Source: Ypsolopha sequella (taxonomy: Eukaryota > Arthropoda > Insecta > Lepidoptera > Ypsolophidae). From it: a stretch of DNA of 64,000 bases. The stretch covers positions 467,001 to 531,000 of the forward strand of contig CAKOHE010000025.1 in the NCBI GenBank assembly GCA_934047225.1, written 5' to 3'. The translations under genes and the position numbers were made by a program. The notes beneath the pieces are model-generated. The model worked only from the letters and a program-made list of their open reading frames with translations, had not been told where the DNA came from and made no database searches. This document shows positions 4,157 through 38,558 of this stretch, piece after piece; within the stretch, counting starts at the first letter, position 1; each line of letters opens with the position of its first letter.

Positions 4157-4818
4157 CTGGTGAAAAGCCGTATAAATGTGATACTTGTGATTGCCGGAGT
4201 GCACGAAAGATTAGCTTACAGAATCATATTATGAGAACACATACTGGTGAAAAGCCATATAAATTTGAGGCTTGTAATTACCGATTTAAAGTCAAAGACC
4301 ATTTAAAGATACACATGAGAACGCATACTGGTGAAAAGCTGTATAAATGTGATACTTGTGATTACCGGAGTGCACGGAAGATTAGCTTACAGAATCATAT
4401 TATGAGAACACATACTGGTGAAAAGCCATATAAATGTGAGGCTTGTAATTACCGATTTACGTGCAAAGACCATTTAAAGATACACATTAGAACGCATACT
4501 GGTGAAAAGCCGTATAAATGTGATACTTGTAATTACCGGAGTGCACGGAAGATTAGGTTACAGAATCATATTATGAGAACACATACTGGTGAAAAGCCAT
4601 ATAAATTTGAGGCTTGTAATTACCGATTTACGTGCAAAGACCATTTAAAGATACAAATGAGAACGCATACTGGTGAAAAGCCGTATAAATGTGATACTTG
4701 TGATAACCGGAGTGCACGGAAGATTAGCTTACAGAATCATTTTATGAGAACACATACTGGTGAAAAGCCATATAAATGTGAGGCTTGTAATTACCGATTT
4801 AAGTGCAAAGACCATTAA
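4157..4818 (+). pseudogene. Zinc-finger ORF fragment 1
   Basis: Fingers run in frame from the BEL-0 LTR edge to TAA at 4816-4818, where the TTA Leu codon of a type B finger has become TAA. Two type B fingers have lost their first zinc ligand (YKFEAC instead of YKCEAC), and the first B finger reads FKVKDH in place of FTCKDH. The open frame extends upstream into the LTR (ATG at 4021), but that is an insertion artefact. The original 5' end of the array is not in the window. Confidence 0.75.
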
Positions 4819-5679
4819 AAGATACACATTAGAACGCATACTGGTGAAAAGCCGTATAAATGTGATACTTGTGATTGCCGGAGTGCACGGAAGATTAGCT
4901 TACAGAATCATATTATGAGAACACATACTGGTGAAAAGCCATATAAATGTGAGGCTTGTAATTACCGATTTACGTGCAAAGACCATTTAAAGATACACAT
5001 TAGAACGCATACTGGTGAAAAGCCGTATAAATGTGATACTTGTGATTACCGGAGTGCACGGAAGATTAGCTTACAGAATCATATTATGAGAACACATACT
5101 GGTGAAAATCCATTTAAATGTGAGGCTTGTTATTACCGATTTACGTGCAAAGACCATTTAAAGTTACACATTAGAACGCATACTGGTGAAAAGCCGTATA
5201 AATGTGATACTTGTGATTACCGGAGTGCACGGAAGATTAGCTTACAGAATCATATTATGAGAACACATACTGGTGAAAAGCCATATAAATGTGAGGCTTG
5301 TAATTACCGATTTACGTGCAAAGACCATTTAAAGTTACACATTAGAACGCATACTGGTGAAAAGCCGTATAAATGTGATACTTGTGATTACCGGAGTGCA
5401 CGGAAGATTAGCTTACAGAATCATGTTATGAGAACACATACTGGTGAAAAGCCGTATAAATGTGATACTTGTGATTACCGGAGTGCACGGAAGATTAGCT
5501 TACAGAATCATAGTATGAGAACACATACTGGTGAAAAGCCATATAAATGTGAGGCTTGTAATTACCGATTTACGTGCAAAGACCATTTAAAGATACACAT
5601 TAGAACGCATACTGGTGAAAAGCCGTATAAATGTGATACTTGTGATTACCGGAGTGCACGGAAGATTAGCTTATTATGA
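4819..5679 (+). pseudogene. Zinc-finger ORF fragment 2
   Basis: This continues in the same frame as fragment 1 directly after its stop; the first in-frame Met is at 4915. It holds about ten fingers with A/B alternation, broken once by two A fingers in a row. Variants include HTGENPFKCEACYYRF. It ends because 10 bp of a type A unit (between AGCTTA and TTATGAG, about 5673) are missing, which puts the reading into TGA at 5677-5679. This is the only indel I found that shifts the frame of the array. Confidence 0.75.
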
Positions 5680-7000
5680 GAACACATACTGGTGAAAAGC
5701 CATATAAATGTGAGGCTTGTAATTACCGATTTACGTGCAAAGACCATTTAAAGATAAACATGAGAACGCATGCTGGTGAAAAGCCGTATAAATGTGATAC
5801 TTGTGATTACCGGAGTGCACGGAAGATTAGCTTACAGAATCATATTATGAGAACACATACTGGTGAAAAGCCATATAAATGTGAGGCTTGTAATTACCGA
5901 TTTACGGTCAAAGACCATTTAAAGATACACATGAGAACGCATACTGGTGAAAAGCTGTATAAATGTGATACTTGTGATTACCGGAGTGCACGGAAGATTA
6001 GCTTACAGAATCATATTATGAGAACACATACTGGTGAAAAGCCATATAAATGTGAGGCTTGTAATTACCGATTTACGTGCAAAGACCATTTAAAGATACA
6101 CATTAGAACGCATACTGGTGAAAAGCCATATAAATGTGATTCTTGTAATTACCGGAGTGCACGGAAGATTAGGTTACAGAATCATATTATGAGAACACAT
6201 ACTGGTGAAAAGCCATATAAATTTGAGGCTTGTAATTACCGATTTACGTGCAAAGACCATTTAAATATACAAATGAGAACGCATACTGGTGAAAAGCCGT
6301 ATAAATGTGATACTTGTGATAACCGGAGTGCACGGAAGATTAGCTTACAGAATCATTTTATGAGAACACATACTGGTGAAAAGCCATATAAATGTGAGGC
6401 TTGTAATTACCGATTAAAGTGCAAAGACCATTTAAAGATACACATTAGAACGCATACTGGTGAAAAGCCGTATAAATGTGATACTTGTGGTTACCGGAGT
6501 GCACGGAAGATTAGCTTACAGAATCATATTATGAGAACACATACTGGTGAAAAGCCATATAAATGTGAGGCTTGTAATTACCGATTTACGTGCAAAGACC
6601 ATTTAAAGATAAACATGAGAACGCATGCTGGTGAAAAGCCGTATAAATGTGATACTTGTGATTACCGGAGTGCACGGAAGATTAGCTTACAGAATTATAT
6701 TATGAGAACACATACTGGTGAAAAGCCATATAAATGTGAGGCTTGTAATTACCGATTTACGTGCAAAGACCATTTAAAGATAAACATGAGAACGCATACT
6801 GGTGAAAAGCCGTATAAATGTGATACTTGTGATTACCGGAGTGCACGGAAGATTAGCTTACAGAATCATATTATGAGATCACATACTGGTGAAAAGCCAT
6901 ATAAATGTAAGGCTTGTAATTACCGATTTACGTGCAAAGACCATTTAAAGATACACATTAGAATGCATACTGGTGAAAAGCCGTATAAATGTGATACTTG
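5676..7000 (+). pseudogene. Zinc-finger ORF fragment 3
   Basis: An uninterrupted run of about 15 fingers is cut by BEL-1 after the codons for CDTC. It contains a sub-block (about 5905-6430) that matches 4290-4830 upstream and 19918-20330 beyond BEL-1, sharing AGGTTACAG in the A unit and YKFEAC in the following B unit. After subtracting BEL-1, the second spacing is 1710 bp, exactly ten dimers, so higher-order repetition exists above the dimer. The reading frame continues into block 2 because BEL-1 plus one target duplication is 12303 bp, a multiple of three. Confidence 0.8.
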
Positions 7001-37514: not shown

Positions 37515-38495
37515 ATACACATTAGAACGTATACTGGTGAAAAGCTGTATAAATGTGATACTTGTGATTACCGGAGTGCACGGAAGATTAGCTTACAGAT
37601 TCATATTATGAGAACAGATACTGGTGAAAAGCCATATAAATGTGAGGTTAGTAATTACCGATTTACGTGCAAAGACCATTTAAAGATACACATTAGAACG
37701 CATACTGGTGAAAAGCCGTATAAATGTGATACTTGTGATTACCGGAGTGCACGGAAGATTAGCTTACAGAATCATATTATGAGAACAGATACTGGTGAAA
37801 AGCCATATAAATGTGAGGTTTGTAATTACCGATTTACGTGCAAAGACCATTTAAAGATACACATTAGAACGCATACTGGTGAAAAGCCGTATAAATGTGA
37901 TACTTGTGAATACCGGAGTGCACGGAAGATTAGCTTACAGAATCGTATTATGAGAACACATACTGGTGAAAAGCCATATAAATTTGAGGCTTTTAATTAC
38001 CGATTTATGTGCAAAGACCATTTAAAGATACACATTAGAACGCATACTAGTGAAAAGCCGTATAAATGTGATACTTGTGATAACCGGAGTGCACGGAAGA
38101 TTAGCTTACAGAATCATATTATGAGAACACATACTGGTGAAAAGCCATATAAATGTGAGGCTTGTAATTACCGATTTACGTGCAAATACCATTTAAAGAT
38201 ACACATGAGAACGCATACTGGTGAAAAGCCGTATAAATGTGATACTTGTGATTACCGGAGTGCACGGAAGATTAGCTTACAGAATCATATTATGAGAACA
38301 CATACTGGTGAAAAGCCATATAAATGTGAGGCTTGTAATTACCGATTTACGTGCAAAGATCATTTAAAGATACACATTAGAACGCATACTGGTGAAAAGC
38401 TGTATAAATGTGATACTTGTGATTACCGGAGTGCACGGAAGATTAGCTTACAGAATCATATTATGAGAACACATACTGGTGAAAAGCCATATTAA
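37515..38495 (+). pseudogene. Zinc-finger ORF fragment 12
   Basis: Same frame, about 11 fingers (Met 37608). Ligand losses include CEVSNYRF and KFEAFNYRF, the latter losing both Cys. It ends AAA to TAA at 38493-38495, and one further degenerate unit runs to 38558. Confidence 0.75.
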
Positions 38496-38558
38496 TGTGA
38501 GGTTTGTAATTACCGATGTACGTGCAAAGACCATTTAAAGATACACATGGGAACGCAT

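Follow-up and report, generated by a model that had tools for sequence, protein, structure and literature searches.

Positions 4157-38558 of a 64,000-bp window of Ypsolopha sequella DNA (C55:467001-531000 of an 867-Mb assembly in 151 contigs, hereafter the window) are rich in C2H2 zinc fingers of nearly identical sequence, and the locus raises the question of whether so many fingers encode a protein or form a satellite. The original prediction, made from the letters of the window, had offered two answers: a satellite born from a zinc-finger gene, or the remains of a very large repeat-binding protein. We conclude that the array is very probably a dead piece of a zinc-finger gene that became a satellite and now drifts as non-coding DNA. 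The first answer is supported by a ratio of nonsynonymous to synonymous change (dN/dS) near 1, an approximately neutral rate of stop codons, block duplication, and the presence of likely parents on a 20.7-Mb contig (C26). The second is not supported, as the zinc ligands are not spared and the constraint lies between the A/B founder fingers and among parent fingers, not within the array.

Finger DNA accounts for 15,308 of the 34,402 bp in the interval, and the remaining 19,094 bp consist of two BEL/Pao long terminal repeat (LTR) retrotransposons. What had been described as one array is therefore three blocks separated by two BEL/Pao inserts, and the labels "intronless" and "no other protein domain" are unfit for an interval holding these elements and a long interspersed nuclear element (LINE). 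The predicted composition of about 180 fingers in 171-bp A/B dimers was reproduced, with ∼179 fingers by length (15,308 bp at 85.5 bp each) and a 171-bp period found by Tandem Repeats Finder (TRF) at 4156-7002, 19299-23761, and 30759-38558. All three blocks are built of head-to-tail copies of a single A/B dimer, about 89 of which were aligned; once the inserts are removed, 365 substitutions (2.4%) separate the 15,298 aligned bp from a common 171-bp dimer. The strict motif CxxC-x12-H-x3/4-[HC] was found in translation for 131 fingers on the forward strand and for none on the reverse strand. As anticipated, the consensus helix residues are R/I/S/N and C/D/H/I, and the codon of the linker proline tracks finger type, being CCG in 70 of 89 A fingers (a further 16 carry CTG, leucine) and CCA in 87 of 90 B fingers. 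Protein-level similarity of the strict fingers is 0.91 within type A (64 fingers) and 0.83 within type B (67 fingers), falling to 0.63 when all 131 are pooled; among 156 retrieved proteins carrying at least six fingers, the highest homogeneity was 0.80, below both types. The alignment of dimers contains no single-base insertions or deletions (indels) and 22 register jumps, of which 21 stay in frame and one, a 10-bp deletion near 5672, breaks it. Ten in-frame stop codons are present, some of them block-duplication copies of each other. The notion of one giant gene was thus not upheld, as no single reading frame spans the ten stops and the frameshifting deletion.

The substitutions among copies carry the argument. 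Among 123 distinct variants we counted 96 missense, 18 synonymous, and 9 stop changes, compared to 91, 22, and 10, respectively, expected from the mutation spectrum alone. Unit divergence with dN/dS near 1 had been named in advance, together with a lack of transcripts and small RNAs, as evidence against function, and the ratio among units was 1.27 (bootstrap 0.84-2.23), with values of 1.06 for variants present in at least three copies and 1.43 for rarer ones. The probability of these data is 7e-14 under a ratio of 0.25, 5e-5 under 0.5, and 0.02 under 0.75. Of the 105 distinct nonsynonymous variants, 18 fall in zinc-ligand codons, where 15.4% would be expected (P 0.59); these codons were hence not spared. 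By contrast, comparison of the A and B consensus fingers gave proportions of nonsynonymous (pN) and synonymous (pS) differences of 0.22 and 0.57. Because the two founders differ under constraint, the unit derives from a working gene; the contrast between this value and the copy-versus-copy ratio places constraint before amplification, with none detectable thereafter. Decay came after amplification, and the purifying selection that operated earlier is undetectable later. As a separate observation, the six CpG sites of the dimer show 28 C-to-T versus 6 G-to-A changes on the forward strand; the copies are not independent, and this excess may reflect a single ancient event.

Relatives of the founding gene were sought in eighteen fetched stretches, seventeen from C26 (0.59-2.18 Mb) and one from C27 (L017, 8.55 Mb). 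C2H2 exons were present in all 18 (L009-L016 and L033-L041 on C26; L017 on C27). All nine C26 loci tested carry the leader ENKSGTERRKNKSG or a close variant behind an identical run of twelve bases, CATTTCATTACA, and the sequence further upstream resembles a splice acceptor in the four loci inspected. Among 76 fingers from nine C26 loci, the best DNA match to finger A (with its extra codon removed) was 94.0%, in L009, and that to finger B was 91.7%, for CEACNYGFTRKDHVERH of L035. A cruder comparison across all 18 loci again placed these two fingers on top at 87% and 88%, with L015 tying with L009. The best match to the whole dimer was found in L041 (87.1% over 171 bp), followed by L014 (86.9%). 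The 76 parent fingers differ with pN 0.156 and pS 0.314. These similarities thus identify the array's family; its direct parent may be lost or unfetched. Locus L009 contains 21.6 copies of an 84-bp finger unit, partly past stop codons, which indicates that finger amplification continues at gene loci too. Throughout the C26 cluster the finger runs change rapidly, and some loci look frameshifted or stopped (e.g., L010).

The array itself grew by block copying. Five duplicated blocks of 0.7-1.7 kb with 98.7-99.5% identity lie at offsets of 9.5, 24.5, 25, 27, and 28 dimers, and adjacent fingers are no more similar than those far apart, which fits block exchange. The copies are homogenized through block exchange and not by neighbor. 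These observations can be assembled into an account in which a two-finger piece of a C2H2 gene would have been copied from a cluster like that on C26 into repeat-rich DNA, would have expanded through unequal exchange and block duplication to a satellite of roughly 16 kb and 90 dimers, and would since have drifted as non-coding DNA under retrotransposon attack. Three parts of this account are inferred: that escape came before amplification, that unequal exchange drove the growth, and that no protein is produced. Most likely the array does nothing as protein and is a retrotransposon target and a by-product of the finger-repeat instability visible in the parent genes.

The first element, e1, encodes Peptidase_A17, rve, DUF1759, and DUF5641 domains and is flanked by a 5-bp target duplication, ACTTG; the second, e2, is flanked by TACAC (5 bp). 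The e2 insertion site is empty in the sister block of the 28-dimer duplication (∼35553), where the 25 bases on each side are identical, so e2 is most likely younger than the duplication that harbors it. The organism names among 120 listed protein matches to e2 were those of moths and butterflies, with a best identity of 74%. A third BEL-type element is represented by an LTR at the left array boundary, which is 99.25% identical to an LTR starting at C55:126,965 (in L022), 344 kb away. The distant copy is preceded by 0.67 kb of the same zinc-finger satellite and has the same CTGGT target motif. On the basis of this match, the likeliest explanation is that the two LTRs belong to one insertion with ends that now lie 344 kb apart, although independent insertions at the same motif are a possible alternative. 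This piece recurs at C55:105.5 kb and C53:637 kb. At the C26 gene locus L015 we found a relative of e1 (92.9% over 1,384 bp), showing that e1-type elements are not limited to small contigs. BEL-type LTRs also stand beside C26 parent genes at L010 1985-2388 and L015 1-2397, the latter accompanied by e1-related internal sequence. The elements recognized lie mostly, not all, on the reverse strand; they are too few to serve as a sign of a one-strand PIWI-interacting RNA (piRNA) cluster and were not used as such.

Table 1 Features in and beside the zinc-finger array (window coordinates)
Feature	Position	Strand	Details
LTR of third BEL-type element, left array boundary	3754..4156	-	403 bp; 81.7% identical to e1 LTR
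Zinc-finger satellite block 1	4157..7000	+	2,844 bp; TRF; edges from LTR ends; holds the sole out-of-frame indel
BEL/Pao LTR retrotransposon e1	7001..19298	-	LTRs 7001-7402 and 18897-19298, 402 bp, 9 differences
LINE nested in e1	14536..18576	-	Pfam RVT_1, Exo_endo_phos, Baculo_FP (reverse transcriptase, endonuclease, FP-like open reading frame)
Zinc-finger satellite block 2	19299..23963	+	4,665 bp; TRF; restarts after e1
BEL/Pao LTR retrotransposon e2	23964..30759	-	267-bp LTRs, 1 difference; Pao peptidase and BEL-type domains
Zinc-finger satellite block 3	30760..38558	+	7,799 bp; TRF; restarts after e2; longest open reading frame 33747-37511
Right array edge	38559..38771	+	213 bp; TGTT...AACA ends; possible LTR, uncertain

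At the right edge, the last finger ends in H-C-stop, slightly resembling the HCND-stop of L011 and L014. The 213-bp stretch that follows has no second copy within the window, and the edge DNA shows no noteworthy similarity to any of the 18 parent loci. Elsewhere in the window, a full-length match to 5S ribosomal RNA at 55816-55933 on the forward strand (Rfam RF00001, 79.4 bits) was the sole Rfam hit at the gathering threshold, and a 212-bp unit occurs in about two tandem copies with 91% matches at 61878-62270. A 6.3-kb array of degenerate 8-bp ATTGGTAG units adjoins the window (L018 3114-9395, C55:460,114-466,395). From position 56354 onward the window contains a repeat whose 1.5-kb copies are spread over many large contigs (40 listed, with 40 of 474 candidates scored); same-strand pairs of it are frequent at distances of ∼12 to 19 kb, a spacing as for long terminal repeats.

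A search of the genome with the array gave at least 155 matches. Among those listed, matches of at least 87% identity were confined to C55, C53, C64, C31, C105, C38, C150, and C36, contigs of 0.18-1.18 Mb; the listed matches on C26 (20.7 Mb) and C27 (20.2 Mb) had 66-86% identity, and those at 84-86% were no longer than 125 bp. The 10 kb flanking the window on each side (L018, L019) yielded no stretch of at least two fingers.

Several results count against the conclusion that the array is a drifting satellite. Frame-breaking indels are scarce, at 1 compared to 123 distinct substitutions. Recent repeats within the window (54 substitutions, 2 indels) predict 4.6 such events (P 0.058), and the full set of compared repeats (259 substitutions, 37 indels; two of the pairs are old and diverged) predicts 17.6 (P 4e-7). 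We do not take this scarcity as selection on the frame because stops are not depleted (9 distinct versus 10 expected). Some long open stretches persist in the array, the longest comprising 1,255 codons with 35 strict fingers. Nor is constraint seen among five very young gene copies of the cluster (ten pairs), where pN is 0.0076 and pS 0.0078, values that rest on few changes. A direct parent with the exact dimer of the array was not found among the 18 fetched loci, and the genome match counts are lower bounds.

Of the other explanations, the one that survives best holds that the array, possibly W-linked, is a source of small, piRNA-like RNAs directed against zinc-finger mRNAs from the parent cluster, in analogy with the OfFem locus of Ostrinia; we regard this as unlikely. 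There, 17 copies of 162-197 bp Ofznf-2 homologues on the W give rise to a piRNA (PMC12783822). In Y. sequella, 17 of the 18 parent loci have one or more exact 26-mers in common with the array (longest shared stretch, 46 bases), the listed array matches at high identity lie in transposable element-rich DNA on contigs of about 1 Mb or less and not on large contigs, and the relaxed protein constraint is compatible with such a role. The commonest shared 26-mers fall in the linker code, however, which is common to such genes, and even the more distant C27 locus L017 shares 20 exact 26-mers. Such sharing also follows from descent, so the small-RNA idea is allowed and little supported. In addition, the target of OfFem is a CCCH gene rather than a C2H2 gene, and the e1 relative at L015 counts against a restriction of these elements to small contigs. 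There is a slim chance that a small-RNA locus capturing the generic linker TGEKPYKC could hit the whole expanding C26 cluster at once. If this were true, and if the array were W-linked and acted in sex determination, it would join four moth primary sex determiners (count from PMC12783822).

A still less probable explanation is that the array encodes, or encoded until recently, a giant polyzinc-finger protein that binds a short repeated DNA motif. The long open stretches, the near absence of frameshifts, and the canonical TGEKPYKC linkers are what such a protein would lead one to expect. Against these stand the neutral ratio, which holds even for variants in three or more copies, the unspared zinc ligands, the ten stops, and the insertion of two elements. 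Furthermore, a search for the parent-exon leader did not detect it in the window or in eleven small-contig array stretches among the first 12 of 362 matches (E up to 10), the best of which had an E of 6e-4 over 19 bases; as a control, the same queries recovered the leader in all ten further parent stretches, one of which was also a query. On the substitution pattern, we reject the giant protein.

Satellite pieces on small contigs occur in identical or near-identical pairs (C55/C53, C64/C31, C105/C38, and C150/C36). C53 holds an inverted copy of window positions 1-56353 with 8 substitutions and 2 gaps. The two contigs diverge at 56353: beyond it C55 enters the repeat shared by many large contigs, and C53 carries different sequence. 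Leftward of the window the two are less alike, at 99.2% over 7.0 kb in a simple-repeat stretch, and on C55 the distance to the left array fragment exceeds that on C53 by ∼40 kb (the C53 stretch, L023, includes 500 unknown bases). The breakpoint and the differences on the left make alleles or a recent duplication more likely than one molecule assembled twice, a judgment based on the aligned contigs. The remaining pairs are 100% identical over 5.0, 5.7, and 5.0 kb, respectively, which would fit redundancy. Candidates for the paired pieces as a group are unpurged alleles, redundancy, recent duplication, or W amplicons. Triosephosphate isomerase is Z-linked in Lepidoptera; its gene was found once, on C30, which is thus probably the Z, and the single copy makes the assembly look primary. 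That repeat assembly falsely made the array or its C53 twin, as the inverted copy and the three identical pairs might suggest, deserves the least credence of all, since the block boundaries carry target duplications, one of them with an empty site, and the twins part at 56353, differ more leftward, and show the ∼40-kb interval difference. The array itself is hardly an invention of assembly, though not every assembled copy need be real.

In a base of 5.8 billion proteins, with candidates limited to 0.55-1.75 times the query length, no listed match exceeded 58% identity to array pieces of 333 and 171 amino acids (best 120 of 7,799 and of 7,258). Among 240 zinc-finger matches listed, the best natural finger shared 14 of 20 residues with B and 13 of 20 with A, a result superseded by the C26 relatives. 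In viral contigs, an exact search with a 23-mer of the array gave no match. In the titles and abstracts of the open-licence literature we recognized no C2H2-derived satellite in Lepidoptera. The human macrosatellite ZAV was considered and set aside, as it is named after the neighboring ZFP37 gene and is described as not built of fingers (PMC3018141).

If the satellite reading is correct, this locus shows legibly how a protein-coding module turns into a satellite: its 171-bp unit records purifying selection before amplification and none detectable after, and close relatives of the founding gene persist in the same genome. It also cautions that satellite DNA can appear in an assembly as long open zinc-finger stretches, and it offers a defined place to ask whether arrays of this kind contribute to the regulation of zinc-finger genes by small RNAs, as described for the degenerate znf-2 copies at OfFem.

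Compared to known systems, the array is closest in sequence to the C26 C2H2 genes, with which it shares finger types and linkers; in those genes there is a leader exon boundary, a mixture of fingers, and constraint from finger to finger, none of which the array shows. Two multi-copy moth loci, Fet-W of Lymantria dispar and Fem of Bombyx mori, are presumably unrelated to the array in sequence. Like the array they are tandem loci, with ∼100 copies in 200 kb for Fet-W and 129 copies in clusters for Fem; they lie on the W and have a known or proposed sex-determining role (PMC13087858). The OfFem locus of Ostrinia furnacalis is reported to consist of tandem degenerate zinc-finger gene fragments of 162-197 bp in repeat-rich moth DNA, which resembles the present case, but it is W-linked and transcribed and yields one piRNA against the CCCH gene Ofznf-2 (PMC12783822), whereas the array is of C2H2 type and is known from sequence alone. 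The nearest precedent we have seen is the papaya tandem repeat X-R55, for which the authors suggest an origin from a zinc-finger gene exon and report a nearby gene with 91% identity (PMC4035066). Both repeats plausibly derive from zinc-finger genes, lie in three blocks, and show copy similarity unrelated to distance. X-R55, as described there, comprises 22 copies of 109-306 bp from a plant gene, with the parent adjoining the repeat (PMC4035066). The Y. sequella array differs in having more copies (∼90 dimers), a unit of two fingers, a legible change from constraint to neutrality, and parent relatives of which the closest found lie on another contig.

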